The position numbers and the translations under genes are program-made. Below, one piece after another: positions 1,974-62,348 of a stretch of 64,000 nt of DNA (within the stretch, counting starts at the first letter, position 1; every line of letters begins with the position of its first letter). Origin of the DNA: Halococcus salsus (lineage in GTDB: Archaea > Halobacteriota > Halobacteria > Halobacteriales > Halococcaceae); contig NZ_JAAAJC010000009.1 in the NCBI RefSeq assembly GCF_009900715.1, positions 1 to 64,000 of the forward strand, written 5' to 3'. The notes beneath the pieces are model-generated. The model was given only the letters and a program-made list of their open reading frames with translations, ran no database searches and had not been told where the DNA came from.

Positions 1974-3260
1974 TCAGTGGATCGTGGGTTCAGTATGAAG
2001 ATGACACGCTGCTGAATGGCCGGCAGCCGTTTCCTGCATATTTGGAGATCTTTGTTCGCAGACCGTCGAGAAAGCGTTCGTGAAGCGGTTCTCGGCGGCT
2101 GAGATGTTCCCCCCAGCTAGATCTATAAGTGCTTCCGATAGCGCCTGTTCTGCAGTTGGATCCTCTAGTTCGCCCGGGATATCGTAGACCTCCCGGATCG
2201 CCATTTGGAGCTGAGAGTCCGAAATTTCTGCTGCGCTCGTCGCTTTGCCTTCAGTAACGAGTCTCTCTCGAGATGCTTCAATGTCGATCGTATGGTCGCG
2301 GACCGCGACCCGCAGATCAAAGAGATTTCGCCATACGGATTGATCGAGATCATACTCAGCAGGCTGGATTACGGCAGGACACCTCGTATGGAATCGACAC
2401 CCTGTGGGTGGATCGGCAGGATCTGGAACTTCGCTCCCAAGCCGCGCATGGTCTTTGCGCTTAGTGGGGTCGGGTGTCGGCACTGATGCTAGTAGCGCTT
2501 TCGTGTATGGGTGCTTGGGGTCAGCGAATACCTCGCCAGTCGACCCTATCTCCACGATCTCGCCAAGATACATTACCGCTACCCGATCACAGACGTCACG
2601 CACGACGTTCATATCATGGCTAATCAGAAGGATCGAGAGGTTGAACGCCGATTGGAGACTTGCTATCAAATCAAGTACCGCAGATTGCACGCTTACATCG
2701 AGCGCGCTCACAGGTTCATCGGCGACTAACAGGTCAGGGTTCAACGTTAATGCCCGTGCGAGCGCGGCGCGTTGTTTCTGCCCGCCTGAGAGTTCGTGTG
2801 GATAGTGGTCATAATCGTCGGCCGAGAGCCCGACCCGTTCGAGCAAGGCTTTGGATCGACTGCGGCGGCGTTCGCGGTCCCGAAGTCCATGGATCGCTGC
2901 GGGTTCAGCCACTGCCTCACCGATCGTCATTCGGGGATCAAAGCTTGATGTCGGATCTTGAAATGTCATGCTTGCCCGCCGTCGAAACCGCTTCCGTTCG
3001 TCATTCTGGAGGTCACCGATAGGTTCGCCATCGAAGACCACTCGACCGGAGGTTGGTTTCTCGAGACGAAGTAGCGCCCGTGCAGCGGTTGACTTTCCGC
3101 ATCCTGACTCACCAACGAGGCCAAGCGTTTCCCCCCGGTGAAGATCGAAATCGATGCCGTCGACCGCGCGTATCCGTCCTGTCTCGCGGTTGGGTAATCC
3201 CTCGGTTATTGGATAGTGTTTTTCGAGATCATGAACTGAGAGCAGTGAATCTTCACTCAT
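1974..3260 (-). CDS. OppF/DppF-like peptide ABC transporter ATPase (copy 1)
   Basis: A 428-residue ATPase subunit. Walker [10 protein letters not shown] (near residue 53), signature LSGGQKQR, Walker B LLVADEP and the oligopeptide-family cysteine motif [10 protein letters not shown] are all present. About 110 residues follow that motif, longer than the usual OppF tail; the same extension exists in copy 2, so it is a conserved part of this subfamily and not read-through. The start ATG overlaps the stop of the OppD-like gene by four bases. It is last in a minus-strand dppC-oppD-oppF operon. Homology with copy 2 begins inside the 3' end of the gene, at the GCTGAATGGCCGG shared by both copies. Confidence 0.85.
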
Positions 3261-4306
3261 CGTACGTTGTTGTTTGCCTGTCCATTGTCCAAGTCTTGTC
3301 CGTCATCAGTCCGGGCCGATTTCAAGCGGCCGTCCGTTTGTCTCTCTACAGGCCGGACCACCGAAGTATCGCGACCTTGCTCATAGAAGATGCACGCAGC
3401 TGTGTGGTCTTCAGTCTCCGTCGGTCGAAGCGGTGGTTGCTCGCCCTCGCGACATTCCGTGATTGCGTGGGGGCATCGAGAGTGGAAACGACACCCAGGG
3501 GGCGGTTCAGTTGCGCTTGGGAGCTCACCTTCGATAGTTTCGCGTTGCTCACCTCGTCCCGGGAGACAGCGAAAGAGAGCTTGAGTATAAGGATGAGCTG
3601 GCGACTCAAACACTTCGTGGACGCTCCCACGTTCCATTACCTTCCCAGCGTAGAGTACCACCACACGATCAGCTATCTCTGCCACGACTCCGAGATCGTG
3701 CGTCACGAAGAGGAGCGCCATCTCGTGCTCGGCCTGAAGATCGTTTAAAAGGTCGAGGATCCCCGCTTGTGTCGTGACATCAAGCGCCGTAGTGGGTTCA
3801 TCGGCAATCAACAGATCGGGTTCGGCGGCAAGCGCCATCGCGATAACGATCCGCTGTTTCATCCCACCCGAGAATTCGTGTGGATACTCGGAGATTCGGC
3901 TCGCAGCTTTGGGGATTCCTACTCTATCCAGCAGTTCGACGGCACGCTCACGAGCGACGGTCTTCGAAACGTCACGGTGGAGTTGAATAGATTCGAGAAG
4001 CTGTGCCTCGATCGAATAGACTGGATCGAGCGCACCCTGTGGATTCTGGAACACGTGGGCGATCCGCCCACCGCGGATGTCAGTGAGCTGCGTTGGCGAG
4101 CGCGCTGTGAGATCCGTTCCATCGAACTTGATCCGACCGTCAACGAGCTCCCCGGGTGGACTTGGGAATAGTTTAGTGAGTGACTCAAGACAGACTGTTT
4201 CTCCGCGATTTACGGCAAAGCTCACGCCATCAACCGCTCTGACCGTGCCCCCCGAAGTGTGAAAGTACGTTCTAAGGTCCTCGACTGAGAGAAGTGGGCC
4301 ACTCAT
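3257..4306 (-). CDS. OppD/DppD-like ATPase lacking the Walker A loop (copy 1)
   Basis: A 349-residue ATPase subunit whose signature (SGGMKQR), Walker B (LLIADEP) and CRFHSRCPHA motif are intact. After RGETVCL the protein jumps straight to ESLTKLF; the copy at 43 kb has VGESGSGKTIAC in between. A 36-base in-frame deletion at about 4186/4187 has therefore removed the whole phosphate-binding loop. The rest is well conserved with mostly synonymous differences, so the loss looks recent. The subunit should not bind ATP normally; the transporter may be dead or depend on OppF or on the copy-2 subunit. Confidence 0.85.
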   Translation of the reverse strand: MSGPLLSVEDLRTYFHTSGGTVRAVDGVSFAVNRGETVCLESLTKLFPSPPGELVDGRIKFDGTDLTARSPTQLTDIRGGRIAHVFQNPQGALDPVYSIEAQLLESIQLHRDVSKTVARERAVELLDRVGIPKAASRISEYPHEFSGGMKQRIVIAMALAAEPDLLIADEPTTALDVTTQAGILDLLNDLQAEHEMALLFVTHDLGVVAEIADRVVVLYAGKVMERGSVHEVFESPAHPYTQALFRCLPGRGEQRETIEGELPSATEPPPGCRFHSRCPHAITECREGEQPPLRPTETEDHTAACIFYEQGRDTSVVRPVERQTDGRLKSARTDDGQDLDNGQANNNVR

Positions 4307-5502
4307 GTACTCCCCCGCGGGTCAAGTGTGTCCCTGAGTGCATCACCTACGACGCTAAACGAAAACACCGTGATGACGAGGAAGACGAGCGGGAAAACCC
4401 AGACCCACCAGAGCTCTACGTTCACAGCACCTCCTTCAGTTGTAACGCTGTTGATGAACTGACCCCATGATGGAACGTTTTCGTCGCCCAGCACGACGAT
4501 GAAGGAGATCGCTGCCTCGGTGAGGATCAACAGTGGGATCTGCCGGGTCGTGGACGTGAATACCGTCGACGAGATGTTGGGAAGGATGTGTTTGCGGATG
4601 GCCGTCGTACGGTTCGCGCCCGCGCTCTCCGCGGCAGTGACGTAGAGTTCATCGCTCCGCTGGATCACTTCACTACGGACGAGACGGGCGACACCGCCCC
4701 AACTCAGTAGACCAAACGCGAGGATGATGAGAAAGAGGCTCTGGCCGAAGACGAATCCGAGGATGATGTACGCTACAAAAGCGGGGACTGTCTGCTGAAC
4801 ATCTACATACCTCATCAAGATTGTGTCGACCCATCCACCCGAATACCCCGCAACAACGCCCACGACCGTTGCGATAGGAATCATGATCATAGACGTTACG
4901 AGGGCAACGAGAAGGCTCACTCCGAACCCCGCGATCGTTAGACCGAGGACGCTCTGGCCGACACTATTGGTACCGAACGGGAATCGGAGGCTCCCGTGAC
5001 AGAATTGTTGGGTGGGAGGACCGGTCACGTCGCCAGCGCAGTTGAGCGCTACCGTTCCGGATTCGATAGTGGCGAATAGCGCAGGCTGGTTCGCGTACTC
5101 GATATTAGTACTCGGACGACCGAGAACGAGCAGGCTCGTGATCCCAAGGACGAAAAACAGGACGAGATAGGCCGCACAAACCACAGCGAGACGATTTTTC
5201 CGAAAACGTTGCCAGTACCGTCGGGTTCGTTCGTAGTCCGTGAGCAACGGAACGACGACGACGAAGACGAACACCACCAACGAGAGCAAGAAGAGCCAGT
5301 CAAGGCGCGCTGGCGTATACCACGCACCGACCGCGAGTCGATAGCTCGTGAAATAGTCGTAGCAAAACAGTGCACCGAGCGCGAAGAGCGCCAGCAGAAA
5401 TCCCCACGTCCTCCATTCAAGTTTGAATCGTCCATCACCGAGTTCGTCCCAGTCGATCGGTTCGAACGCGGAGTCAGAACCTGAACCGGTATCCGTTGAC
5501 AT
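4303..5502 (-). CDS. DppC/OppC-like permease (copy 1)
   Basis: A 399-residue inner membrane subunit with several N-terminal membrane segments, a large outside loop and the C-terminal binding-protein-dependent transport domain (EAA-type stretch near AAESAGANRTTAIRKHILPN). The outer loop has two cysteines (ALNCAGD and QQFCHGS), conserved in copy 2, possibly disulfide-bonded. At 399 residues it is longer than the typical DppC of about 300. First gene of the minus-strand operon, divergent from dppB. Confidence 0.85.
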   Translation of the reverse strand: MSTDTGSGSDSAFEPIDWDELGDGRFKLEWRTWGFLLALFALGALFCYDYFTSYRLAVGAWYTPARLDWLFLLSLVVFVFVVVVPLLTDYERTRRYWQRFRKNRLAVVCAAYLVLFFVLGITSLLVLGRPSTNIEYANQPALFATIESGTVALNCAGDVTGPPTQQFCHGSLRFPFGTNSVGQSVLGLTIAGFGVSLLVALVTSMIMIPIATVVGVVAGYSGGWVDTILMRYVDVQQTVPAFVAYIILGFVFGQSLFLIILAFGLLSWGGVARLVRSEVIQRSDELYVTAAESAGANRTTAIRKHILPNISSTVFTSTTRQIPLLILTEAAISFIVVLGDENVPSWGQFINSVTTEGGAVNVELWWVWVFPLVFLVITVFSFSVVGDALRDTLDPRGST

Positions 5503-5738
5503 CGATAACTATGATCGATGGATGAGGGTAGCAAATAAGTTTTTCCCGGCTATGGTTGAGTAGCGTAATCAAGAGACTCAACATTTATTATATTGTGCCC
5601 TCCACATAACCAACATATCCAGATGTTCAGTTCACGGCGATTTGTGCTCACCGATCTGGATACCGAACCCCATCTGAAAGGACTCAGACTCGACTCAGAG
5701 GGCAAGCACCAACTACGTGGTTTGCTGGGTGTCTCTCC
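5503..5738. promoter_or_regulatory. Divergent promoter region between dppC and dppB (copy 1)
   Basis: 236 bases between the two start codons. An AT-rich TTTATTATATTG block (around 5584-5595) is a likely TATA region; the corresponding TTTATTGTATCG is found in the copy-2 spacer. Conservation of the block in both copies supports a functional control region. Confidence 0.45.
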
Positions 5739-6767
5739 ATGAGTCGAGGATGGTGGTTCGCTCGGCGAGTAGTTTTTGCGGTGTTCGCGGCGTATCTCGT
5801 ACTGTCGACAGTGTTCATGTTCGTCGCACTCACCCCAGATCCTCGCGTTGGTGAGCTTACCTACGCCGCGACCTCCGAGGCAAATGACAAGCGGATTCCT
5901 GTTGAACAAACTGATTCTTGGGAGCGGTTACAGGATTACAAAGCTGAACGCAACCTTGACGATCCGTTCTTCGAACGTTATGAGAGCATACTTGTCTCAT
6001 ACACTATGTTCGATTGGGGTGAATCCTATGGAGCAGATGGACAGACGACGTTCGGAGGATCGTATGGTTCAGGATACGCGGCAAACATTCCGGTCATCGG
6101 GTTGGTTGGGAAAGCACTTGGTCATACTCTTCAGTACGTGCTGCCAGCAGTTCTCTTTGCGGTGGTCTGTGGCCTTGGAGCCGGTCTCTACTCAGCGACC
6201 CATCGGAGCAACTTGCTCGACAGGCTAGGAACAAGTATTGCTTACCTCAGTTTTAGTTTCCCCAATTTCTGGCTTGGGACCATCGCCCTTGCTCTTGTCG
6301 GCACCGGTAGCTGGCTAGGAGCTCAAAATGAAAGCGAGTTCCTCCGCACAACAGTACTTCCCGCTGCAGTGCTCGGTACCACACTATTTGCAGGCCAGCT
6401 CCGGTACACTCGGGCGCAGTCGCTCGAATATATTGATACAGAATTTATCAAACTCGTTAGGGCGAAAGGAGCAACAAATGGGCGCGTTGCGCGTCATCTC
6501 CTTCGCAATGCGGCAGTTCCTCTATTATCGTTATTCTTCGCCGACATGCTCGGACTCCTCGTGCTGAACGTATTCGTTATTGAGTACGTTTTCGGGATAT
6601 CTGGAATTGGGTCGCTGGCACTAGTCGCGATACAGGGTCGGGACTTGCCTGTGATCCTCGGTACGACAATGATAATTGTTCTCTTCGGTGTTGCAGGCAA
6701 CTTGTTGCAAGATGTTGCCTATCAAGTGTTTGACCCACGAATCGGTGAGCAAACAACGAGAGAGTAG
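5739..6767 (+). CDS. DppB/OppB-like permease (copy 1)
   Basis: A 342-residue permease: one N-terminal membrane helix, an extracytoplasmic stretch of roughly 90 residues (FDWGESYGADGQTTF), then five helices and the transport domain with VRAKGATNGRVARHLLRNA. It pairs with DppC to form the channel. Start ATG gives MSRGWWFARR, identical in context to copy 2. It is divergent from the ATPase operon and followed after 139 bases by a small secreted-peptide gene. No solute-binding protein is encoded near it. Confidence 0.85.
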   Translation: MSRGWWFARRVVFAVFAAYLVLSTVFMFVALTPDPRVGELTYAATSEANDKRIPVEQTDSWERLQDYKAERNLDDPFFERYESILVSYTMFDWGESYGADGQTTFGGSYGSGYAANIPVIGLVGKALGHTLQYVLPAVLFAVVCGLGAGLYSATHRSNLLDRLGTSIAYLSFSFPNFWLGTIALALVGTGSWLGAQNESEFLRTTVLPAAVLGTTLFAGQLRYTRAQSLEYIDTEFIKLVRAKGATNGRVARHLLRNAAVPLLSLFFADMLGLLVLNVFVIEYVFGISGIGSLALVAIQGRDLPVILGTTMIIVLFGVAGNLLQDVAYQVFDPRIGEQTTRE

Positions 6768-6840
6768 ATTTCAGACGTATCTCTTGTAGTCAGTAGATAA
6801 ATGCAACTTTATCTAGGAAATATTTATATTATTTGTATTC

Positions 6841-6853
6841 AAATATTGTATCG
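6841..6853 (+). promoter_or_regulatory. Probable TATA region of the small peptide gene
   Basis: AAATATTGTATCG lies about 55-65 bases before the start codon. The copy-2 gene has AAATATTATATTGG at the same place, and the following block (GCGAAAATRGCAATCGTCGT) is conserved too. The peptide may thus have its own promoter besides read-through from dppB. Confidence 0.45.
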
Positions 6854-6906
6854 GCGAGATTGCTTGGTAGCGAAAATAGCAATCGTCGTCCCGTAAAGTC
6901 AGTACC

Positions 6907-7128
6907 ATGAAAAAGCTAATTCGCGCTGTCCTTGTTGTAGTGGTCGTCCTCTCGGCCGTTGCAATGACAGGGGCGGCAAGTGCGTCGGCGACTAGTACCA
7001 CTACAAGTGGCTCCAACATAGGAGATATCAGCTCTTCCAGTGGATCAGGTACAACTGGTATCCCGGGGCTCCAGCCAGACTGTTACACCAACGCTGACGG
7101 AACGGTGTGCGTACCACCAGGAACGTAG
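6907..7128 (+). CDS. Small secreted two-cysteine peptide (copy 1)
   Basis: A 73-residue protein. Residues 1-26 form a Sec-type signal peptide (MKKLIRAVLVVVVVLSAVAM then GAASA). A Ser/Thr/Gly-rich linker follows, and the last 17 residues are PDCYTNADGTVCVPPGT. The copy-2 peptide has the same layout; its C-terminal block is identical apart from one inserted proline, while the linker differs. I recognise no family. Its place directly behind a DppB gene in both cassettes suggests that it, or a cleaved C-terminal fragment, is the partner or substrate of the transporter. A pheromone-like, bacteriocin-like or accessory role are all open. Confidence 0.7.
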   Translation: MKKLIRAVLVVVVVLSAVAMTGAASASATSTTTSGSNIGDISSSSGSGTTGIPGLQPDCYTNADGTVCVPPGT

Positions 7129-7143
7129 GAGAAACCGTGAAGC

Positions 7144-7163
7144 TACCTGTTTTTAGACAGGTA
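7144..7163 (+). terminator. Hairpin downstream of the small peptide gene
   Basis: TACCTGT (7144-7150) and ACAGGTA (7157-7163) form a perfect 7-bp stem with loop TTTTAG. Copy 2 has a stem of wholly different sequence (CTGCCCC/GGGGCAG) at the same place, so pairing is preserved while sequence is not. A terminator or mRNA-stabilising structure is likely. Confidence 0.6.
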
Positions 7164-7240
7164 CGACTGGCTGTTTACTAAGCTTGCGACCTTGACCCCT
7201 ATTATGATGTTAGAATGACATACGAAATGGGATCTGATGG

Positions 7241-7263
7241 TGTCCAAAAGGTACTCCTTTGGA
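7241..7263. repeat. Dispersed AAAAGGTACTCCTTT-type motif, copy 2
   Basis: TCCAAAAGG-TACT-CCTTTGGA, the most symmetric copy. It sits between the Opp cassette and the sugar permease gene, just after the point where the two Opp cassettes stop being alike; copy 2 of the cassette has the same motif at its right end. Confidence 0.55.
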
Positions 7264-34981: not shown

Positions 34982-36049
34982 ATGGACTCGATGGAGCCGG
35001 TTCGAATCGGTGTTGTTGGGCTTGGTAACTGGGGGTCATTTCACGCGACCCGCCTCGGTGAAACTGAGGCAGATCTCGTTGGCGGCGTCGATATTGACCC
35101 TGAGGCGCGCGAACGCTTTACAGAAACGTTTGATGTCCCAACCTATGCAAGCCTCAACGGTCTCGCCGAGGCAGGTGCCGATGGGGTTGTGATCACAACG
35201 CCAAACCAATATCACGAAGAGCAAGCGACGTCAGCGTTCGATTTGGGTCTAAGCGTATTAATCGAAAAACCCCTTGCCCATACTCTCGAAAGCGCTGAAC
35301 GAATCGCTGCCGCCGCCGAGGATGCATCAGGGACGTGCATGGTGGGATTCAAAAACCGATTCTTGCCCGCCGTCGAGGTGGTCGATGGTTACAAAAACGA
35401 AGGCCGATTGGGTGAAATTACCCACGTCGAGGCCAACTACGTCCGACGACGCGGGATCCCGGGTCGTGGGTCATGGTTCACGCAGAAGGATGCAGCGGGT
35501 GGTGGAGCGCTAATCGATATCGGCGTCCACGCAATCGACCTCGCACTCTACTTTCTGGATTTCCCTGAGATTAACGAGGTGCTTGGTCAGACTCGAAGTC
35601 AATTCGGTACTCGTGATGAGTATACTTATCTCGATATGTTTGGCGAAGATTCGGGACCAGGACAGTTTGATGTCGACGATTCGACGACGGCGTTTCTGAG
35701 CTGTGCGGACGGCCAGACGATCTCGCTCGAATGTGCGTGGGCGGCCGACCGTGAACCCACCGACGAATTCGTGGTTCAAGGAACGGAGGCAGGCGCGACG
35801 CTCGATCGAGGAACCGAAGATCTCACGATTCACCGAGCGGAGACGATCGGGACCCCTCATTTCGTTAATGCCTCAATCGAAACTCGAGATGTGGACCCCA
35901 TTGCAGCCGAACAACGGGCGTTCGCTACGAGCATTCGTACTGGGAGGCCACCCGAACGTAACACCCCTGAACAAGCCCTCCGGGTCCAGGAAGTCCTTGA
36001 TGCTATCCAACGCTCCGCAGAATTGGGACGCGCAGTCGAGATCGAGTAA
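34982..36049 (+). CDS. Gfo/Idh/MocA family sugar dehydrogenase (b)
   Basis: From MDSMEPVRIGVVGLGNWG (34982) about 355 residues. Rossmann motif GLGNWGSFH, EKPLAH motif, and an internal GGGALIDIGVHAIDLALYF segment that holds the conserved DxGxHxxD active-site pattern. In thu-type systems a Gfo/Idh protein (ThuB) works with ThuA in 3-keto-trehalose formation; ThuA follows here after about 210 bases on the same strand. Confidence 0.82.
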   Translation: MDSMEPVRIGVVGLGNWGSFHATRLGETEADLVGGVDIDPEARERFTETFDVPTYASLNGLAEAGADGVVITTPNQYHEEQATSAFDLGLSVLIEKPLAHTLESAERIAAAAEDASGTCMVGFKNRFLPAVEVVDGYKNEGRLGEITHVEANYVRRRGIPGRGSWFTQKDAAGGGALIDIGVHAIDLALYFLDFPEINEVLGQTRSQFGTRDEYTYLDMFGEDSGPGQFDVDDSTTAFLSCADGQTISLECAWAADREPTDEFVVQGTEAGATLDRGTEDLTIHRAETIGTPHFVNASIETRDVDPIAAEQRAFATSIRTGRPPERNTPEQALRVQEVLDAIQRSAELGRAVEIE

Positions 36050-36262
36050 CCAAACTTCCGTGTAGCGTGTATTTGGACGGTATTTCCATATTTGTCACTT
36101 CTCGGTACTGAAAGAGTGTTGAGACCTCTATAGAGGGAGCTGTTGGTCAATGAATTTGGCTTTTCGACTGGTTTGATCCTGGAAAGATCGTCTGTACCAG
36201 TATATCTATCATGAGGCTCCAAAACGAACAATGCTTTACGAGCAACCGTTAAACGCGCAGTT

Positions 36263-37003
36263 ATGACATCGGTTACAGTCTGGAACGAATATCGTCATGA
36301 GAAGGAGAACGATACTGTTGGGGAAATATATCCTAAGGGGATTCACACAGTTATTGCTGGTGCGCTCGAATCCGAAGGATTCGAAACGAGAACTGCAACC
36401 CTCGACGAACCCGAGCATGGGCTCACTGAGAGCGTGCTCAACGACACTGATGTACTGACATGGTGGGGGCACGCAGCGCACGAGGAGGTTGAAGATAAGA
36501 TCGTGAACCGTGTTTATCAACGGGTCCTCGATGGAATGGGTCTCATCGTTCTGCATTCAGGCCACTATTCGAAAATTTTCCGACAGTTGATGGGGACGAC
36601 GTGTTCACTAAAGTGGCGCGAAGCAGCAGAGAAAGAACGTCTTTGGGTTATCGAACCAAGCCATCCGATCGCGGATGAGATAGACGAATACATTGAGGTA
36701 CCCGAGGCGGAAATGTATGGCGAGCGGTTCGATATCCCAGCACCCGATACCTTAGTCTTCAATTCATGGTTTGAGGGCGGGGAAGTATTCCGATCCGGAT
36801 GTTGTTACCATCGTGGAAATGGCCGTGTGTTCTATTTTCGTCCCGGCCACGAAACCTATCCCATCTATCACGATGAAGCCATCCAACAAGTATTGGCAAA
36901 CGCTGCCTCGTGGGTGGCCCCCAGTGATGGACCAACACCGGATTTCGGCAACACTGAACCAGTAGAGGACATTGAAATGACTGACGACCGATCTGTTCAC
37001 TAA
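36263..37003 (+). CDS. ThuA-like trehalose utilization domain protein
   Basis: A 246-residue class-I glutamine-amidotransferase-like (ThuA) protein: [16 protein letters not shown] at the N terminus, [26 protein letters not shown] and [13 protein letters not shown]. Family knowledge: rhizobial ThuA and ThuB act in conversion of trehalose-type disaccharides through 3-keto forms. Coupled with dehydrogenases, isomerase and a binding-protein importer, it completes a thuEFGKAB-like set. Confidence 0.83.
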
Positions 37004-37526
37004 AGCTGTGCTGGCGTAGCTCGCGAGATCCCGACGATGAGTTTTGAGACAGTACGCTCTAGGTGGCCTTAGCTATCTCCAGTTTGTACGGATACCGAGG
37101 AGCCGCCACGGTCAAAGCTAGAGCTGACTTGGTTCGGACCAGAGGTATCCTCGCTAGCCCCACCCAGTTGACGGGTGTTCTGAAATCAGGTCACACCGGA
37201 ACGGTACGCGTCTATCTGCAGATATTCAGTTATTAGACATCATGAACTTTGAGAACCCCCTGCCAGTAGCCAGTTATTTTCCGACAATCATAGTGATTTT
37301 AGAACTATGGTTCGCGGGTTCTTCTTACCGAGCGAGGACAAGAATTCTTCATCATTGAGAATGCCAAAGACATCATTAGTTGGAATATAGATAGTAATGT
37401 TGAACAAAGGTATCCAAGATTTAACCCTTTAGTCAACAGACCTTGTCCGATACGGAGGCCTCATGCAGTGAGAGGGGATAACGACGGACTTTATTGGCTT
37501 AGCGCTGGTTCAACTATGGGGAGCGG
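37004..37526. other. Intergenic region upstream of the left tRNA-Thr
   Basis: About 520 bases with no gene. The last 45 bases resemble the corresponding stretch before the right tRNA-Thr and carry its presumed promoter. Nothing else is supported. Confidence 0.35.
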
Positions 37527-37601
37527 GCCGAAGTAGCTCAGCTTGGCCAGAGCAGCTCCCTTGTAAAGAGCTTGCCGGGGGTTCGAATTCCCCCTTCGGC
37601 T
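37527..37601 (+). tRNA. tRNA-Thr(UGU), left copy, degenerate
   Basis: Acceptor GCCGAAG/CTTCGGC pairs fully; D arm GCTC/GAGC; anticodon loop CTTGTAA gives UGU. Compared with the right copy it has an A in the anticodon stem (C31-A39 mismatch) and a T in the T stem (G53-U61 in place of the near-universal G-C). It is probably a decaying duplicate. The two copies are direct repeats 11.3 kb apart. Confidence 0.85.
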
Positions 37602-37705
37602 TAGAAGTAGTCGGTGTCAGCACCAAGCAAAGAGAGCAAGAGCAGGCCATCGATCAGGTTCACTCATCCCTTCCTCTCTGATTGAGGAGTGGGCTGTTTT
37701 CCCGA

Positions 37706-38482
37706 TCAACTACGATCAGTCCGCTCGAATTCTGAGAGTTGAGTCGGCTGGGAGTCCGGTGAACTCGGCTCTAGCGCGGTGAATTCGAGGCCCTGTTCAG
37801 CGAGGAGTCGCTCCGCGCGGTCAGTAACTGATGGCGCGACCAAAATGCCACGAACCGACCTCTCAACTGGGAGTTCCCGACGGAGCGCGTTCACATATCG
37901 GTTCAATTGGCCTGCCGCATCTGGCCCCACACGACGTCGCTTGAGTTCAACGACTGTCGGTATCACATTGGCGTCCTTTCCATAGATATCGATCGCTCCA
38001 GCAGCGGTTTCACGCTCGGTCATCTGAGCGACGAACCCCTCTTCTAAGACATCAGGGTTAGTGAGAATTCGTTGGCGAAGATCCTCTTCGCTTCCCTCTA
38101 AAGCGAGAGTAGGTGAATCCTCTAACTCCAAGAGCGAGAGCTGAAGTACCGTGTGGAACGCAACCGTGATTTCTTCGTGAGGATTCGAGCGAACACTTTC
38201 GACAACAAGCTTCTCCTGGTCATCGTCGAGCCGAGCAGTGTGTGGGCACCCAGGTGGTTGTCAGTTCACAGGTTCATGCTGTTCAGTTCGATGGACAAGG
38301 AGTGTTCCATCTGGTTTCAGAATTACCAATCGCTCACCGAGAGGAAGATGGCTTGTGGCTCGACCATCGTAGTCGACTGTACAACCTCCAACAACCGTAA
38401 CCATCGCGTTTTGCTCGAAGCCCGTTTGAAGATACTCAAAAGCTTCTGGAGACGATGGGTTGGAAAGTGACGAGACAGGCAT
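37706..38482 (-). pseudogene. nucS: NucS mismatch endonuclease gene with an in-frame TGA
   Basis: Reading starts at MPVSSLSNPSSPEAFEYL (38482) and runs in one frame through the whole family length of 258 residues, ending LSEFERTDRS. A single TGA at 38261-38263 interrupts it after HEPVN; the flanking residues (QPPGC) suggest a former TGG. The N-terminal DNA-binding/dimer domain lies before the stop and the RecB-like nuclease domain (GAIDIYGKD, VVELKRRR, with the catalytic Asp, Glu and Lys) after it. Family knowledge: NucS/EndoMS cuts DNA at G-T and related mismatches. A second copy elsewhere may exist. Internal restart at 38131 could still make the nuclease half. Confidence 0.85.
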
Positions 38483-38532
38483 GCACTTCCTTAGAGCGAA
38501 ATCCAGTAGTGTTTGTCGCCGGAAAGAGCCCG

Positions 38533-38556
38533 TGTCAAAAAGGCGCTCCTCTCAGA
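38533..38556. repeat. Dispersed AAAAGGTACTCCTTT-type motif, copy 5 (variant)
   Basis: TGTCAAAAAGGCGCTCCTCT, a weaker match, lies about 50-75 bases upstream of the minus-strand nucS start and overlaps the stop of the TauE gene. Confidence 0.35.
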
Positions 38557-39544
38557 GGACCTGACTGAAAAGAATTGCAACTAATACCAGCGCGTAGCCC
38601 GGAACAAGGTACTGTAGCGCGCGGTTTGGAAGGGCTCGGACCGTATACGGGGAGAAGATCGATGCGAGGAACCCGCCGGCGAACACCGACGGAAGCAATA
38701 CTAAGTTGAGCTCAACACCTGCGGCTGTGATCCCGAAGAACGTCGCGATCCCCGCTATCGAAACGATCCCTTCCGACATTGATGTAATCGCGGTCGCGCT
38801 CTTCTCATAGACACCTGAGAGGATCTCACCCAGTGTGAGCACTGGCCCGTAGCCGCTTCCAGCGATACCCTTGTTCAGCCCGGCGAATATCGCGAATCCC
38901 ACCAACAATCGAGGTCGATATTCTGTCGTTTCACCAGCGTACTTCTGAACCAGCGTTGTCGAGGCGATCAACAGTACGACTACCCCAACGTAACTCTTAA
39001 TGTACGCATCCGGAATCGAAAACTGCAGATACGTGAGAATAACCGAAACCACTACCGCGAGTACACCCAGTAGTACGATGATACCAAGAACTCGGGTCGA
39101 TTCGACCGCTGAATCCGAGCTGGTGCCGAATTCGACATTCTTGAATTCGTTATGGAACAGCCCAGAGACGATACCAGTCGCCCCCTCTGAGAGCAACAGA
39201 ACGGGTGTGACTGCAAGCGGGTCATAACCGAGAACGAACAGCAAGGCACCTATCGTTGCACCGAATCCCATTCCTGACGCCGAATCCAGCGTCTCAAAGA
39301 CGAATGCCGAGACGATTACCACCGGCAAGATGAGTGCCGTCCCTTCTGCCGAAGTCGGCGTAAATGGGGGCACGACATATGTCACGAGTACCCAGAGTAA
39401 GACTACGTACAGCACCAGCGCACCACCGATACGAATCCATGTGCGTCGATCGAGTTTGAGACGTTCGGAGAGCGACAATGCATCCAGCTCGCGGGCTAAT
39501 TCACCGATTTGGCCTCGACTTTCGGATGAAGAATCCTCTGACAT
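38552..39544 (-). CDS. TauE/SafE family membrane permease
   Basis: A 330-residue membrane protein with a charged N-terminal tail (residues 1-38) followed by eight or more helices and the repeated glycine-rich TauE/SafE pattern (SASGMGFGATIGALLFVLG; GLNKGIAGSGYGPVLTLG). Family members export sulfite, sulfoacetate or other small anions; the substrate is not visible from context. Confidence 0.8.
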   Translation of the reverse strand: MSEDSSSESRGQIGELARELDALSLSERLKLDRRTWIRIGGALVLYVVLLWVLVTYVVPPFTPTSAEGTALILPVVIVSAFVFETLDSASGMGFGATIGALLFVLGYDPLAVTPVLLLSEGATGIVSGLFHNEFKNVEFGTSSDSAVESTRVLGIIVLLGVLAVVVSVILTYLQFSIPDAYIKSYVGVVVLLIASTTLVQKYAGETTEYRPRLLVGFAIFAGLNKGIAGSGYGPVLTLGEILSGVYEKSATAITSMSEGIVSIAGIATFFGITAAGVELNLVLLPSVFAGGFLASIFSPYTVRALPNRALQYLVPGYALVLVAILFSQVL

Positions 39545-39994
39545 TGGGTGGTAATCGTACTTGAAGACAGGTGTACAAAACCAGTCCTGAATACCGTGTT
39601 GTTGCCGTGACCTATGACAGATCCATGTACTGTCTTCTGACTCGGTGTTGGCGTCGTAATTCCCGAGGGTTGATTGGTCAATATGCTGTTCACACCTCTA
39701 TAAGCTACTTACAACTACAGTAAATGACTGCGGTGACCAGCAGCTCGTCGACAGCGAGTCAGTACTGAGCCACTCCACATTTCACTGTGGCTCAGGAAAA
39801 GTGCTGCTAGGCTTCGTTATACCAACCGAGAGAACTATGCCGCCTCTGAGAGCAATCGCTGAGGATACCCGGGAATTCGTCGGTATCAGCGTCCTGCAGT
39901 TCATTCTCACCGAAGAGAGTTCTGATAGTTCGATTAGTCAATATCCTCGATTTCAGAATCTGTGCCCGGTATTAATGTCGAAATCGTCCGGTAA

Positions 39995-40041
39995 TCTTAC
40001 CTAACATTGGAGCGATGTGCTCGATTAAATGTTTGGTAAGA
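39995..40041. repeat. TCTTACC inverted-repeat element, copy 2
   Basis: TCTTACCTAACA (39995-40006) and TGTTTGGTAAGA (40030-40041), 23-base spacer. Orientation is opposite to most copies: the TTAGG-type arm comes first. Confidence 0.6.
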
Positions 40042-40123
40042 AGGGCACTGTGGTCCACACTGTCTAAACCAGTAGCTGAGGTTAGCGCGCCAATCGCACA
40101 CCGTAAGAACGGCATCTGAGAGG

Positions 40124-40146
40124 TGTCGAAAAGGTACTCCTTCGCG
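40124..40146. repeat. Dispersed AAAAGGTACTCCTTT-type motif, copy 6
   Basis: TGTCGAAAAGGTACTCCTTC, 72-94 bases upstream of the wHTH gene at 40218. Confidence 0.5.
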
Positions 40147-40217
40147 TCATGAATTAAGAATGGTAACTATAGCATAGTCAGGAACAGCTATATTTTCTTC
40201 GAGGAGCAAGATAGAGC

Positions 40218-40817: not shown

Positions 40818-40820
40818 GGG

Positions 40821-41397: not shown

Positions 41398-42666
41398 TCA
41401 CAAGAGATGGCAGGTTGCTGAATGGCCGGTCGTCATCTCCTGGTTCTCAGGCGACTCCCGTTCACAGACCGTCGAGAACTCCTCTGTGAATCGTTCTTCG
41501 GCGGTCGCGATGTTCTGCTCAGCGACGTCCGTAAGTACCGCAGCGACCGCTCGTTCCGCATCCGCGTCGTCCAGTTCGCTCGGGATATCGTAGCCCTCTC
41601 GAATCGCCGCTCGGAGCTTGGGGTCTGAGACTGCTGTGGTACTCGTTGCGCTCCCCTCGGAAACGAGTCGCTTCCGAATCGCCTTAGCGTCGAGCGTCCG
41701 GTCGCGGATCGCGACTCCGAAGTCGAGGAGATTCCGCCAGACTGATTGGTCGAGATCGTACTCGGCAGGCTGGATCACCGCAGGACACCTCGTGTGGAAC
41801 CGACATCCGGTAGGTGGATCGGCAGGATCCGGAACTTCGCCCGCCAAGTGCGCATGGTCCCCACGGGTGGTGAGGTCGGGTGTCGGAACCGATGCGAGGA
41901 GCGCTTTCGTGTAGGGATGCATAGGCTCGGCGAATACCTCGGCGGTGGGGCCGTTCTCTACGATCTCGCCTAGGTACATCACTGCTACTCGATCGCAGAC
42001 GTCGCGCACGACGTTCATATCGTGAGTTATAAGAAGAATCGAGAGGCCGAGCGTCGATTGGAGGTCGGCTATCAACTCCAGTACCGCGGATTGCACGCTC
42101 ACATCAAGCGCACTCACAGGCTCGTCCGCGACCAGCAGGTCGGGATTCAGGATCAGCGCCCGTGCGAGCGCAGCGCGTTGTTTCTCTCCACCCGAGAGTT
42201 CGTAGGGATAGCGGTCGTAATCGTCGACCGAGAGTCCAACCCGTTCGAGCAAAGCCTTCGATCGGTTGCGGCGGCGGTCGTGGTCCCGCAGTCCATGGAT
42301 CGCTGCGGGTTCGGCCACCGCTTCGCCGATCGTCATTCGAGGATCGAGGCTCGACGTCGGATCTTGAAAGATCATGCCCGCCCGTTGTCGAAACCGCTTC
42401 CGTGCTGCATCCCCCTGATCACCGATGGGGTCGCCATCGAAGACTACCCGACCGGAGGTCGGTTCCTCGAGGTGAAGCAGCGTCCGTGCAGCGGTGGATT
42501 TTCCACATCCTGACTCTCCAACGAGACCGAGTGTTTCCCCTCGTCGAAGGTCGAAATCGACGCCGTCGACCGCACGGACTCGTCCCGTCTCGCGGTCGAG
42601 CAGTCCCTCGGTTATCGGATAGTGTTTTTCGAGGCCACGGACCGAAAGCAGTGGATCGTCACTCAT
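41398..42666 (-). CDS. OppF/DppF-like ATPase (copy 2)
   Basis: A 422-residue homologue of the protein at 1974-3260, with Walker [10 protein letters not shown], signature LSGGEKQR, Walker [18 protein letters not shown] and the same roughly 110-residue C-terminal extension (QSVWRNLLDFGVAIRD to GHSATCHLL). Conservation of the extension in both copies shows it is part of the protein. Overlaps oppD by four bases. Confidence 0.87.
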   Translation of the reverse strand: MSDDPLLSVRGLEKHYPITEGLLDRETGRVRAVDGVDFDLRRGETLGLVGESGCGKSTAARTLLHLEEPTSGRVVFDGDPIGDQGDAARKRFRQRAGMIFQDPTSSLDPRMTIGEAVAEPAAIHGLRDHDRRRNRSKALLERVGLSVDDYDRYPYELSGGEKQRAALARALILNPDLLVADEPVSALDVSVQSAVLELIADLQSTLGLSILLITHDMNVVRDVCDRVAVMYLGEIVENGPTAEVFAEPMHPYTKALLASVPTPDLTTRGDHAHLAGEVPDPADPPTGCRFHTRCPAVIQPAEYDLDQSVWRNLLDFGVAIRDRTLDAKAIRKRLVSEGSATSTTAVSDPKLRAAIREGYDIPSELDDADAERAVAAVLTDVAEQNIATAEERFTEEFSTVCERESPENQEMTTGHSATCHLL

Positions 42667-43763
42667 CGTGCGCCACCGCCTTTCTGCCTATCGTTCGAAT
42701 TTCGTCCGTCATCAGTCCGAGTCGGCCCCGAGCGGTTACCGGTTCGTCCGTCGCCCGCTCGTTCGTCGTCGGTTCGGATCGCCGAGGCGTCACGACCCTC
42801 TTCGTAGAAGACACACGCAGCGGTGTGGGATTCGGTCTCCGTCGGCCGAAGTCGGGGGTGAGTTCCCTCACGACACTCCGTGATCGCGTGAGGGCATCGA
42901 GCGTGGAACCGACAGCCAGCCGGCGGTTCGGTTGGGCTCGGGAGGTCGCCCTCGATGGTTTCGCGTCGCTCACCGCGGCCCGGAAGACACCGAAAGAGAG
43001 CTCGAGTGTATGGATGGGCTGGCGACTCGAACACGTCTTCGACGCTCCCGCGTTCCATCACCTTTCCAGCGTAGAGTACCACGACACGGTCGGCCATCTC
43101 CGCAACGACTCCGAGATCGTGTGTCACGAAGAGGACCGCCATGTCGTGTTCGGCCTGAAGATCGTTCAAGAGATCGAGGATCCCTGCCTGTGTCGTCACG
43201 TCGAGTGCCGTGGTCGGTTCGTCGGCGACCAATAGGTCGGGTTCGGCGGCGAGCGCCATCGCGATGACGATCCGTTGTTTCATTCCACCAGAAAACTCGT
43301 GCGGATATTCCGCGATTCGGGTCGCAGCGTTCGGGATCCCGACTCTATCGAGCAGTTCGACGGCACGCTCGCGAGCAACCCCTTTTGAAACATCACGGTG
43401 GAGCCGAATGGACTCTCTGAGCTGTGCCTCGATCGAATAGACCGGATCGAGCGCTCCCTGAGGATTCTGAAACACATGTGCGATCCGTCCACCACGGATA
43501 TCGGTGAGCCGCGCTGGTGAGCGCGCCGTGAGGTCCATCCCATCGAACTCGATCCGACCGTCGACGAGCTCTCCCGGTGGACTCGAGAACAGTTTGGTGA
43601 GCGACTCGCAGGCGATGGTCTTTCCCGACCCAGATTCTCCGACGAGACAAACTGTTTCACCACGATGAACGGCAAAACTCACGCCATCGACCGCTCTGAC
43701 CGTGCCGGCCGAAGTGTGAAAGTGTGTTCTAAGATCCTCGACCGAGAGCAGTGGGTCACTCAT
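42663..43763 (-). CDS. OppD/DppD-like ATPase (copy 2, intact)
   Basis: A 366-residue ATPase with Walker A GESGSGKTIA (residues about 42-51), signature SGGMKQR, Walker B LLVADEP and CRFHARCPHA. It has the loop that copy 1 lacks, so this cassette should be ATP-competent. The C-terminal 40 residues are a low-complexity Arg/Asp/Gly tail. Four-base overlaps with both neighbours indicate translational coupling. Confidence 0.87.
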   Translation of the reverse strand: MSDPLLSVEDLRTHFHTSAGTVRAVDGVSFAVHRGETVCLVGESGSGKTIACESLTKLFSSPPGELVDGRIEFDGMDLTARSPARLTDIRGGRIAHVFQNPQGALDPVYSIEAQLRESIRLHRDVSKGVARERAVELLDRVGIPNAATRIAEYPHEFSGGMKQRIVIAMALAAEPDLLVADEPTTALDVTTQAGILDLLNDLQAEHDMAVLFVTHDLGVVAEMADRVVVLYAGKVMERGSVEDVFESPAHPYTRALFRCLPGRGERRETIEGDLPSPTEPPAGCRFHARCPHAITECREGTHPRLRPTETESHTAACVFYEEGRDASAIRTDDERAGDGRTGNRSGPTRTDDGRNSNDRQKGGGAR

Positions 43764-44959
43764 GCGCTCGACCTCGGATCAAGCGTGTCCCGGAGTGCAT
43801 CACCCACGACGCTGAACGAGAACACCGTGACGACGAGGAAGACAAGTGGGAAAACCCAAACCCACCACAGCTCCACGTTCACGCCACCCGTTTCGGTCGT
43901 AACGCTGTTGATGAACTGACCCCACGATGGGACGTTCTCGTCGCCTAGTACGACGATAAAGGAGATCGCTGCCTCAGTGAGAATTAACAGTGGGATTTGT
44001 CGGGTCGTGGCCGTGAACACGGTCGACGAGACGTTGGGAAGGATGTGTTTGCGGATGACCGTCGTACGGTTCGCGCCCGCGCTCTCAGCGGCGGTGACGT
44101 AGAGTTCACCGCGCCGCTGGATCACTTCACTACGGACGAGGCGGGCGACACCGCCCCAACTCAGTAGACCGAAGGCGAGGATGATGAGAAAGAGGCTTTG
44201 CCCAAAGACGAATCCAAGGATGATGTACGCTACAAAAGCGGGGACTGTCTGCTGAACATCCACATACCCCATCAAGACTGTGTCGACCCATCCACCCGAG
44301 TACCCCGCAACAACGCCCACGACCGTTGCAATAGGAACCATTATCATAGACGTTACGAGAGCGACGAGGAGGCTCACTCCGAACCCCGCGATCGTTAGAC
44401 TGAGGACACTCTGGCCGACGTCATTGGTACCGAACGGAAATCGGAGGCTGCCGTGGCAGAGCTGTTGGACGGCAGGGCCAGTTACGTGACCAGCGCAGTT
44501 GAGCGCGACCGTTCCGGACTCGATAGTGGCGAATAGCGCAGGCTGATTCGCGTACTCGATATTGGTACTCGGACGACCGAGAACGAGCAGGCTCAGGATT
44601 CCAAGAATGAAGAACAGAACGAGATAGGCGGCACAAACCACAGCAAGGCGATTTTTTCGGAAGCGTTGCCAGTACCGCCGGGTTCGTTCGTAGTCCGTGA
44701 ACAACGGAACGACGACGACGAAGACGAATACCACCAACGAGAGTAAGAAAAGCCAGTCAAGGCGCGCTGGCGTATACCATGCACCGACCGCAAGTCGATA
44801 GCTCGTGAAATAGTCGTAGCAAAACAGTGCGCCGATCGCGAAGAGTGCCAGCAGAAGTCCCCACGTCCTCCATTCGAGGCTGAGTCGACCATCATCGAGT
44901 TCCGCCCAGTCGATCGGTTCGAGCGCAGGGTCGGAACCCAGACCGGTATCCGTTGACAT
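43760..44959 (-). CDS. DppC/OppC-like permease (copy 2)
   Basis: A 399-residue protein almost identical in protein sequence to copy 1, including the two outer-loop cysteines (ALNCAGH and QQLCHGS). Nucleotide differences are mainly at third positions, evidence of selection on both copies after separation. First gene of the minus-strand operon. Confidence 0.87.
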   Translation of the reverse strand: MSTDTGLGSDPALEPIDWAELDDGRLSLEWRTWGLLLALFAIGALFCYDYFTSYRLAVGAWYTPARLDWLFLLSLVVFVFVVVVPLFTDYERTRRYWQRFRKNRLAVVCAAYLVLFFILGILSLLVLGRPSTNIEYANQPALFATIESGTVALNCAGHVTGPAVQQLCHGSLRFPFGTNDVGQSVLSLTIAGFGVSLLVALVTSMIMVPIATVVGVVAGYSGGWVDTVLMGYVDVQQTVPAFVAYIILGFVFGQSLFLIILAFGLLSWGGVARLVRSEVIQRRGELYVTAAESAGANRTTVIRKHILPNVSSTVFTATTRQIPLLILTEAAISFIVVLGDENVPSWGQFINSVTTETGGVNVELWWVWVFPLVFLVVTVFSFSVVGDALRDTLDPRSSA

Positions 44960-45194
44960 CGATGACTGTGATCGATGGACGAGGATGGAAAATAAGTGTT
45001 TCCCGCCCGGGAGTTGAGCGAGAAATCAAGCGGGTCAACGTTTATTGTATCGTGGTTTCACATGGGTACTATACCCGGATGTTCAGCTCACGGCGATCTG
45101 TGACCATCGATATAGAGATCGAATCCCGTCCAATGAGCCTCAGTTCCGACTTGAAGAGCGAGCATCGACGACATGATTTGTTGGGTATCTCTGT
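44960..45194. promoter_or_regulatory. Divergent promoter region between dppC and dppB (copy 2)
   Basis: 235 bases, alignable with 5503-5738. TTTATTGTATCG around 45040-45051 matches the proposed TATA block of copy 1. Confidence 0.45.
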
Positions 45195-46220
45195 ATGAGT
45201 CGAGGATGGTGGGTCGCTCGGCGAGTGGTCTTTGCAGTATTCGCGGCGTATCTCGTGCTGTCGACGGTGTTCGTGTTCGTCGCTCTTACCCCAGACCCTC
45301 GTGTCGGTGAGCTTACCTACGCCGCGACCTCTCAGGCAAACAACCAGCGTATTCCCGTCGAACAGACGGATGCGTGGGAGCAGCTACAGACGTACAAAGC
45401 CGAACGCGGCCTCAACGAACCGTTCCTCGAACGCTACGAGAACGTGCTGGTCTCGTATACGACGTTCGACTGGGGAGAGTCATACGGAGCGGACGGACAG
45501 ACGACGTTCGGCGGATCGTATGGGTCGGGATACGCGGCAAACGTTCCAGTCATCGGGCTGGTTGGAAACGCACTCGGTCATACTCTTCGGTACGTGCTAC
45601 CGGCAGTTCTCTTTGCAGTGGTCTGTGGTCTCGGAGCGGGTCTCTACTCGGCGACCCACCAAGGAAGCTTGCTCGACAGGCTGGGAACGAGTGTCGCTTA
45701 CCTTGGCTTCAGCTTCCCGAATTTCTGGCTTGGAACCATTGCTCTCGTCCTCGTCGGTACCGGTGGTTGGTTGGGAATTCGGAATGGGAGTGAGTTCCTC
45801 CGTACGACGGCACTTCCCGCTGCAGTGCTCGGCACCACGCTATTCGCGGGCCAGCTTCGATACACTCGGGCGCAATCACTCGAATATATCGATGCCGAAT
45901 TCATCAAACTCGTACGGGCGAAAGGAGCAACGAACGGGCGTGTTGGACGTCATCTCCTCCGTAACGCAGCGATCCCACTCTTGTCGTTGTTTTTCGCCGA
46001 TATGCTCGGACTCCTCGTGCTGAACATATTCGTCATTGAGTACGTCTTCGGAATTCCAGGGATAGGGTCACTAGGACTTGTTGCGGTTCAGGGTCGTGAC
46101 CTGCCTGTGGTCCTTGGCACAACGATGGTGATCGTTCTTTTCGGGGTTGCAGGCAATCTGCTACAGGACGTTGCCCATCGGGTGTTCGACCCACGGATCG
46201 AAGCGGCGAGCAGCGAGTGA
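45195..46220 (+). CDS. DppB/OppB-like permease (copy 2)
   Basis: A 341-residue permease, homologue of 5739-6767, with the same outside segment (FDWGESYGADGQTTF) and transport domain. Compared with copy 1 it uses more G/C at third positions. Followed after 142 bases by the second small peptide gene. Confidence 0.87.
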   Translation: MSRGWWVARRVVFAVFAAYLVLSTVFVFVALTPDPRVGELTYAATSQANNQRIPVEQTDAWEQLQTYKAERGLNEPFLERYENVLVSYTTFDWGESYGADGQTTFGGSYGSGYAANVPVIGLVGNALGHTLRYVLPAVLFAVVCGLGAGLYSATHQGSLLDRLGTSVAYLGFSFPNFWLGTIALVLVGTGGWLGIRNGSEFLRTTALPAAVLGTTLFAGQLRYTRAQSLEYIDAEFIKLVRAKGATNGRVGRHLLRNAAIPLLSLFFADMLGLLVLNIFVIEYVFGIPGIGSLGLVAVQGRDLPVVLGTTMVIVLFGVAGNLLQDVAHRVFDPRIEAASSE

Positions 46221-46296
46221 GTCGCTCGCAAAGGTGTCTCTTCCTGTCAGGTTCTTATATACTCCAAAATTTGGAAATATTTACTAGAGTGTGTCG

Positions 46297-46310
46297 AAAT
46301 ATTATATTGG
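46297..46310 (+). promoter_or_regulatory. Probable TATA region of the second small peptide gene
   Basis: AAATATTATATTGG about 55-65 bases before the start codon, matching the copy-1 position; the downstream GCGAAAATGGCAATCGTCGT block is shared too. Confidence 0.45.
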
Positions 46311-46362
46311 CGAGATTGCTTGACAGCGAAAATGGCAATCGTCGTCTCGCAGAGTCAGTCCC

Positions 46363-46587
46363 ATGAGAAAGCTAACTCGCGCTGTCCTCGTTGTAATGGT
46401 CGTTTTCTCGGCCGTCGCAATGATGGGGGCAGCAAGTGCGTCAGCGACTAGTACCACTACGAGTGGACCCAGCGTAGGAGATCCCAGTTCCTCCAGTGGA
46501 TCAGGTACGACTGGTCTTCCAAGACCCCAACCAGACTGTTACACCAACGCTGACGGAACAGTGTGCGTACCGCCACCGGGAACGTAG
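46363..46587 (+). CDS. Small secreted two-cysteine peptide (copy 2)
   Basis: A 74-residue homologue of the protein at 6907. Signal peptide MRKLTRAVLVVMVVFSAVAM then GAASA, a Ser/Thr/Gly/Pro linker, and C-terminal PDCYTNADGTVCVPPPGT. The C-terminal block is the most conserved part after the signal, which argues that it is the active portion. Ten residues separate the two cysteines, enough for a disulfide loop. No lipobox or anchor is seen, so it should be released. Function unknown. Confidence 0.7.
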   Translation: MRKLTRAVLVVMVVFSAVAMMGAASASATSTTTSGPSVGDPSSSSGSGTTGLPRPQPDCYTNADGTVCVPPPGT

Positions 46588-46601
46588 AACAAACCCTCAA
46601 A

Positions 46602-46620
46602 CTGCCCCGCTTTGGGGCAG
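46602..46620 (+). terminator. Hairpin downstream of the second small peptide gene
   Basis: CTGCCCC (46602-46608) pairs with GGGGCAG (46614-46620) around loop GCTTT, 15 bases after the stop. It replaces the unrelated TACCTGT/ACAGGTA stem of copy 1 at the same site. Confidence 0.6.
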
Positions 46621-46702
46621 ATACGACGGACCATTTACTGAGTTTGCGGCCTTGACGTTGAGTTACGATAAAAATTTTAACACGGGAAGCGACGCTTGGT
46701 GG

Positions 46703-46725
46703 TGTCCAAAAGGTACTCCTTTAGA
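46703..46725. repeat. Dispersed AAAAGGTACTCCTTT-type motif, copy 7
   Basis: TGTCCAAAAGGTACTCCTTT then AGA, at the right end of Opp cassette copy 2, equivalent to 7241-7263 at copy 1. Confidence 0.55.
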
Positions 46726-46774
46726 CCATCTTCCTGCTTGACTTCCCACTATCTCAGCTTCCGGGGCGTGTTCT

Positions 46775-48690: not shown

Positions 48691-48827
48691 GTCGGCAGAC
48701 GATTCGAGCCAGCGAGTAATTGACGAGTATCGATTGCTCTCTGGAAGAAAACTGAATCGTATTACGGAAGATACCGAGTGATCCGTAGTCTTTACTCACT
48801 TGGCGACGGTCTGATTACAGAGAGCGG

Positions 48828-48902
48828 GCCGAAGTAGCTCAGCTTGGCCAGAGCAGCTCCCTTGTAAGGAGCTTGCCGGGGGTTCGAATCCCCCCTTCGG
48901 CT
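48828..48902 (+). tRNA. tRNA-Thr(UGU), right copy, intact
   Basis: All arms pair: acceptor GCCGAAG/CTTCGGC, D GCTC/GAGC, anticodon GCTCC/GGAGC with loop CTTGTAA (anticodon UGU), T GGGGG/CCCCC with TTCGAAT. No encoded CCA. The left copy at 37527 is the degenerate partner. Confidence 0.92.
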
Positions 48903-48940
48903 TTTCTAACTCCGAGTGGCAAAGGAATACGCAGTATCGC

Positions 48941-61457: not shown

Positions 61458-62348
61458 ATGTTGGGATACTCCGTATACTCGGAAGCGGGGGGAGTGGCAA
61501 AGACAACAACAGCCGCGAACTGCGCGGTCGCTCATGCTCGGCACGGGCTTGACGTTTTGATGATTGATCTGGATCCACAGAACGCCAGTCTCTCCTACCT
61601 ATTCGATGTAGATCAGGACCGGGCTGAAGGGGATGCAGACAATTTGGTTCGTCACCTTATTGGCCGACCCCGAGGAAAGCTGACCGACCTTATTCGTGAG
61701 ACTGACGAAGGGGTGGATGTCCTACCGACCCATAACATGCATGAGAAGCTAACAGAGCTTCTCTTGAAAACCGCTGAAATCGAAGAGCAAACCCATGGAG
61801 ACACGAACTACGAATTTCAGAAACACTCACAGCTTCTCACAGTGCTACAGGAGGCGGGAATCAACGAACAGTACGATGTACTCGTAATTGATCCCCCAGC
61901 AAATGGAGAGCAAGCACAGAACAATGCTCTATTCGCAACTCGAAACGTCGTCATTCCTGTAGAACTATCCGGGAAAGGGGAGCAATCTGTTCGTGGACTA
62001 GAGGAAGTTGTTGAAGGGCTTGAGGCAACGCTCGAAGTGAATATCGGCGTTCTAGCTCTTCTACCGTTCAAATACGAAGGGACGAACGACCAGAAGCATT
62101 ATCTCGATGAACTAGAAGAAACTGGATTCGACATGCCAGTTATAGTCGGTAAGCGTTCATCGCTGATGGAGGGGTGCTGGCGGGAGCAATGTAGCGCATT
62201 TCGCTATATCGACGAATACCGCGATCGGCGACGAGACCACGAAGTGAAGACGCTTGAACAGTACGACGAGTTAGCTCGTCATATCGAGCGTGAAGGCGGT
62301 ATTCAGCTCGAAGACACCAGCCAGAACGAAATTGAGGTGGAATTATGA
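61458..62348 (+). CDS. parA: ParA/Soj-family partition ATPase
   Basis: A 296-residue ParA with deviant Walker A GGVAKTTTAAN (residues about 11-21), switch DLDPQNASLSYLF, and Walker B VLVIDPPANGEQA. Its small size without an N-terminal HTH suggests plasmid type Ib or chromosomal-like Soj. The next gene starts four bases before its stop. It should move plasmid copies apart together with its partner on the iterons. Confidence 0.88.
   Translation: MLGYSVYSEAGGVAKTTTAANCAVAHARHGLDVLMIDLDPQNASLSYLFDVDQDRAEGDADNLVRHLIGRPRGKLTDLIRETDEGVDVLPTHNMHEKLTELLLKTAEIEEQTHGDTNYEFQKHSQLLTVLQEAGINEQYDVLVIDPPANGEQAQNNALFATRNVVIPVELSGKGEQSVRGLEEVVEGLEATLEVNIGVLALLPFKYEGTNDQKHYLDELEETGFDMPVIVGKRSSLMEGCWREQCSAFRYIDEYRDRRRDHEVKTLEQYDELARHIEREGGIQLEDTSQNEIEVEL

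Follow-up and report, generated by a model that had tools for sequence, protein, structure and literature searches.

The window, a stretch of 64,000 nucleotides, belongs to contig C9 (64,574 bp) of a Halococcus genome (label G000) that was assembled into 30 contigs totalling 3.52 Mb and is 95.14% complete. It contains a nucS/endoMS gene whose frame is open in a single phase except for a TGA at codon 74 (Table 1). Read through this codon, the frame matches both Pfam domains of the family, NucS_N (1.3e-26; 92.8 bits, cut-off 23.9) and NucS_C (4.1e-27; 95.1 bits, cut-off 24), and scores 309 bits against the NCBIfam equivalog NF003270 'endonuclease NucS' (cut-off 216). The presence of both domains in one frame, each above its curated cut-off, identifies the gene as NucS/EndoMS. 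Single-base shuffles of the region gave a mean of 10.6 stops in this frame, and one stop or fewer occurred in a fraction of 0.00015 of 20,000 shuffles. We were unable to find a second stop or a frameshift in the window nucS, and the TGA at codon 74 is its only lesion. The sequence-only reading had described a full 258-residue NucS frame in one phase, broken by a single TGA at a Trp position. The minus-strand translation from 38482 to 37706 and the Pfam and NF003270 results agree with that description, which was silent on the strand and on the plasmid-like nature of the contig.

Table 1. Features of the window discussed in the text (positions are those of the window).
Feature	Position	Strand	Remarks
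Peptide-type ABC transporter block, one copy	1974..7260		
tRNA-Thr(TGT), extra copy beside nucS	37526..37602	+	75/77 bases shared with the 48827 copy
nucS/endoMS frame, 258 codons	37706..38482	-	One phase; sole internal stop plus terminal TGA
Largest downstream in-frame ORF, 141 aa	37706..38131	-	Starts at codon 118 (TTG), within the interdomain linker; whole NucS_C nuclease domain
In-frame TGA, codon 74	38261..38263	-	Between ...HEPVN and QPPGC...; Trp in 96/96 other aligned NucS (biased sample, see text)
Still-translatable N-terminal 73 codons	38264..38482	-	Incomplete NucS_N mismatch-binding domain
TauE/SafE-family permease gene	38552..39544	-	Same strand as nucS; 69 bp upstream of nucS
Peptide-type ABC transporter block, other copy	41398..46718		
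tRNA-Thr(TGT), other copy	48827..48903		
ParA/Soj-type partition ATPase	61458..62348	+	Ten best plasmid matches all on haloarchaeal plasmids, 54-63% identity

The position of codon 74 is occupied by Trp in 97 of 97 alignment rows, with the window counted as read through, in a sample biased by the fact that most of the aligned NucS came from a pattern scan in which one of two patterns includes this Trp; the second pattern and the genus searches are independent of it. Residues 38, 73 and 74 of the window protein align without gaps to positions 41, 76 and 77 of the EndoMS from Thermococcus kodakarensis (TkEndoMS; PDB: 5gke). According to the account of that structure, the flipped mismatched base is stacked between Tyr41 and Trp77 and is hydrogen-bonded by Asn76 and Trp77 (PMC6829318). 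Because codon 74 aligns to Trp77, the TGA falls on the residue that reads the mismatch, and the rest of the frame, nuclease domain included, would not be reached by translation. The aromatic pair that reads the mismatch is incomplete in the window, where Tyr38 is kept and position 74 is a stop. The residues D165, E179, K181 and Q192, which we take to be the nuclease residues, are invariant in 97/97 rows and are encoded 3' of the stop. Translation would end at codon 74 and yield a 73-residue piece. Since this piece would lack the nuclease domain altogether and contain only part of the mismatch-binding domain, we infer from the stop that the product is null.

Synonymous sites were saturated in six of ten comparisons between the window nucS and intact Halococcus copies. 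The remaining four gave dN/dS values of 0.09-0.14, about the same as those among the intact copies themselves (0.09-0.16, five pairs); these codon comparisons show a frame formerly under strong purifying selection. The neutral divergence accumulated since the stop arose is below about 0.11-0.145 at 95%, when nonsense changes only are counted. The other ten Halococcus rows share 129 invariant columns, and the window NucS deviates at 12 of them, one being the stop; its sister from G006 deviates at 8 of 125. The corresponding tree branches are 0.35 for the window and 0.13 for the sister. The longer branch could mean that constraint had been relaxed already before the stop arose, as opposed to a loss that was clean and recent. 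No other strains of the host species with which the TGA base might be compared were present in the collections searched.

A lone lesion in an otherwise well-conserved frame, known from the assembly only, might also be a sequencing or assembly error in a gene that is intact in the organism. We regard such an error as unlikely, since the genome contains a second, heavily degraded nucS remnant, which makes the loss of nucS in this strain not odd, and a lone base substitution is a rarer error in assembled contigs than an indel. Alternatively, the UGA could be read through as Trp and give a low level of full-length NucS. Trp insertion would supply exactly the required residue, and the frame, free of other lesions on either side of the stop, has been under purifying selection over a long history, a good condition that would also be expected of a gene still expressed in this way. 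A suppressor form of tRNA-Trp is conceivable, as the tRNA-Trp gene is absent from the tRNAs identified. Against this, TGA terminates 20 of the 28 window genes checked, for which reason a reassignment of TGA was rejected, and the stop is shared by none of the 96 other alignment rows. The genome has 45 tRNA matches (RF00005); among the 42 called by ARAGORN there is none with the anticodon TCA, and the other three, of which two have intron-like inserts, seem unlike TCA tRNAs when folded and judged by eye. Taken together, readthrough appears very improbable. The same low probability is assigned to the production of a separate C-terminal nuclease domain that still acts, by initiation at the internal TTG in the linker. 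The 141-aa ORF does start between the two domains and spans the entire nuclease domain. However, the start codon is TTG, no Shine-Dalgarno-like stretch was seen by eye before it, and the upstream reading frame is lost; furthermore, because the mismatch-reading part is missing, the product could not be a mismatch nuclease.

The G+C content of contig C9 is 54%, compared with 69% around both mutS genes of the genome. On the basis of this composition, of the ParA-type ATPase and of the parallels described below, contig C9 is likely to be a plasmid. An integrated element is possible instead, because the contig ends, compared for circularity, do not overlap. A megablast comparison of window positions 36000-48000 with plasmids returned three short bacterial matches only and no near relative. 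The two tRNA-Thr(TGT) genes of the window are of plasmid type and unlike the chromosomal tRNA-Thr(TGT) at C1:922150, and no near match to them was found elsewhere in the genome. The two base differences in the copy beside nucS weaken its predicted fold (-29.4 vs -34.9 kcal/mol). The idea that contig C9 bears an essential tRNA was rejected, given the tRNA-Thr(TGT) of different sequence at C1:922150. The window also contains a peptide-type ABC transporter block in two copies, which have the same layout, have diverged and are joined by many exact matches of 16-44 bases.

The sequence-only reading had proposed that a second intact nucS on the chromosome would make the interrupted copy merely redundant. 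Searches with the protein and with both Pfam domains found no intact second nucS in the 95%-complete assembly, although one may be present in the remainder of the genome. The only other stretch of the same family in this genome is on contig C18, a degraded nucS remnant with a stop and a frame break. It is close to an orc1/cdc6 gene that matches, at the DNA level, replication genes found on haloarchaeal plasmids, and a contig of G007 with an intact nucS carries an Orc 86% identical to that of C18. It thus seems that loss of nucS in this strain has affected each of two plasmid-like contigs. Two further matches were rejected as a second NucS. The product of the first, on contig C2 (L009:1018-1755), is a protein of 245 aa with a NucS_N-like domain and zinc ribbons but no nuclease domain; the second, on contig C7, encodes 345 aa and has a weak NucS_C match (23 bits, cut-off 24). 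Several other Halococcus genomes also have weak matches to the part of NucS that is present in the 245-aa protein.

An intact nucS was found in four of ten Halococcus genomes (G003, G006, G007 with three copies and G009 with two). The host has the nonsense copy, G002 a fragment, and G001, G004, G005 and G008 none, although the completeness of G008 is 72% and the one contig that makes up G004 may leave out its plasmids. The 'stops' tabulated in the other Halococcus copies are ordinary ends of frames of 235-255 residues. Within the order, NucS scores above the cut-off in 339 of 392 genomes, and a strong match is missing, by eye count, in about 29 of 345 genomes of good quality. At 58 of 80 other haloarchaeal loci, mutS is convergent downstream of nucS, within 400 bp at 16 loci and farther away, up to about 3.5 kb, at 42; the 22 loci without a convergent mutS include the three from Halococcus and some that are cut by contig ends. 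The ends of the two genes are within 30 bp of each other in all three genomes (G015-G017) of the sister genus in the same family, which we guess to be Halalkalicoccus. In none of the ten Halococcus genomes do a nucS match and a mutS match coincide in position. There is no mutS beside the window nucS, and the genome's four MutS_V matches are all on contigs other than C9. For this draft genome, the absence of a chromosomal nucS is shown by search and synteny together.

In a tree of 59 NucS proteins (200 bootstrap trees), the 11 Halococcus rows, the window included, form one clade (100/98; 100% of the bootstrap trees), which includes three nucS from H. dombrowskii, one on each of three complete plasmids. 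The chromosomal nucS of the sister genus are placed with other chromosomal copies in a separate group of 42 rows (99/99), and the plasmid nucS of Halomarina and Halalkalicoccus are outside both clades, with unsure placement. The G+C content of all seven non-window nucS loci of Halococcus whose genomic surroundings were retrieved (L132-L138, one of which is the C18 remnant) is 53.5-58.6%, and that of ten mutS loci of the genus (L119-L128) is 63-70%. Because it forms a separate clade together with plasmid copies and is found at loci of low G+C content, the nucS of Halococcus is, by phylogeny and composition, a plasmid-type gene and not the inherited chromosomal one. Within the literature searched, which mostly did not extend to subscription journals, we found no description of nucS in plasmid-like DNA of Halococcus.

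Several additional features of nucS copies were observed. On two of the H. dombrowskii plasmids a gene for a TATA-box-binding protein is directly upstream of nucS (L114:7160-8762, L115:7058-8762), and on the same two a tRNA-Ala is present at a distance of about 4 kb. In H. morrhuae, and in one of the two copies of H. thailandensis (L034:4173-4895, L033:364-1086), nucS ends about 11 residues earlier than in most others, and the shortened proteins do not have the C-terminal LSEY/LTDF-like tail, which we assume could be the PCNA-binding end. Plasmid-borne nucS extends beyond the haloarchaea, since Deinococcus accounts for 8 of the 20 plasmid records that match NucS.

With respect to the other mismatch-repair route, the host has two mutS-mutL pairs, each with the genes side by side on a GC-rich contig (C1:749-753 kb and C2:276-281 kb), and all four genes are open. 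The FxE mismatch motif and the Walker A motif are present in both MutS, and the DQHA..E motif in both MutL. The mutS on C1 (mutS-A) has 62% identity with its orthologue from the sister genus, with mutL directly next to it and no nucS. It overlaps a short mutL by 17 bases (L120:4307-8717), and the sister genus has nucS in the place of this mutL. An intact nucS is present in one of five Halococcus genomes with mutS-A (G000, G001, G002, G005 and G006) and in three of five without it (G003, G004, G007, G008 and G009, of which G008 is 72% complete). A trade of NucS for a second mutS-mutL pair was considered and dropped, as so small a sample carries no meaning.

The sequence-only reading had gone on to propose that the strain would be a mutator if this were its only nucS. 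We found no second intact copy, and in mycobacteria, which are without MutS-MutL, nucS is described as needed for mutation avoidance (PMC5290159). Several observations nevertheless argue against a host in which nucS was the only mismatch-repair gene of its kind. Besides the two intact mutS-mutL pairs, four of the ten Halococcus genomes are without nucS and one more has a fragment only, and a MutS1 match was found in 345/345 good-quality genomes of the order, those without a strong NucS match included. In addition, H. volcanii without nucS is reported to have no phenotype (review PMC7776575, section 2.6.3), and the gene lost here is of a plasmid lineage. With intact mutSL pairs and the report from H. 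volcanii, a mutator phenotype is possible but not expected, and the mutator reading as such is, in our judgement, decidedly unlikely. In the same review, deletion of mutSL in H. volcanii is said, from unpublished data, to raise the mutation rate (PMC7776575, section 2.6.3), while inactivation of mutS or mutL in Halobacterium is reported to cause no hypermutability (PMC9997560). How the work is divided between NucS and MutS-MutL in haloarchaea is called open by all three sources (PMC5290159, PMC7776575, PMC9997560).

We therefore propose, with good though not full confidence, that the window nucS was inactivated recently and belongs to a plasmid-borne lineage, which in Halococcus takes the place of the chromosomal nucS. 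Most likely the gene is of plasmid type and dispensable, and the allele a fresh null. Its loss would be tolerated because MutS-MutL would supply mismatch repair and plasmid copies of nucS come and go. Given two complete MutS-MutL sets and many relatives without nucS, the loss is probably of little effect. A further suggestion, which we consider rather doubtful, is that NucS in Halococcus is now a plasmid gene with a role at the level of the plasmid, outside chromosomal mismatch repair. It might, for example, cut mismatched heteroduplexes and so stop related replicons or incoming DNA from recombining; if so, the window would represent a plasmid freshly without this function and not a host without mismatch repair.

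Under the reading we prefer, a recent loss in a plasmid-borne lineage, the window supplies a natural and apparently recent null allele of nucS in an archaeon that has two MutS-MutL pairs. Such an allele could be of use in testing how the two mismatch-repair routes share their work in haloarchaea. It also points to a genus in which nucS is absent beside mutS and is found instead, patchily and sometimes in several copies, in plasmid-like DNA. Genomes such as those of Halococcus would be misread in presence/absence tables built on the assumption that nucS in haloarchaea is a single chromosomal repair gene, and the confinement of nucS to plasmid-like DNA in this genus is worth following.

Among the known systems, the NucS/EndoMS from T. 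kodakarensis (5gke) and Pyrococcus abyssi (2vld) have the same two-domain architecture as the window protein and are in register with it at Y38, at N73, at position 74 and in the nuclease region; unlike these, the window has a stop at the mismatch-reading Trp, and the Halococcus gene is in plasmid-like DNA. The nucS of the H. dombrowskii plasmids unnamed2, unnamed3 and unnamed4 belong to the clade of the window gene and are plasmid-borne, but their frames are intact, they are 61-70% identical to it, and their neighbours are different. In Haloferax volcanii (HVO_0486) and Halobacterium salinarum, nucS is described as coexisting with MutS-MutL (PMC9997560; PMC7776575, section 2.6.3). Both species, unlike the host, keep nucS, and the Haloferax copies are in the other NucS clade. 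In Mycobacterium tuberculosis, too, altered nucS alleles occur naturally, but they are missense changes in a genus without MutS-MutL, and some of them are reported to raise the mutation rate in a surrogate host (PMC5290159).
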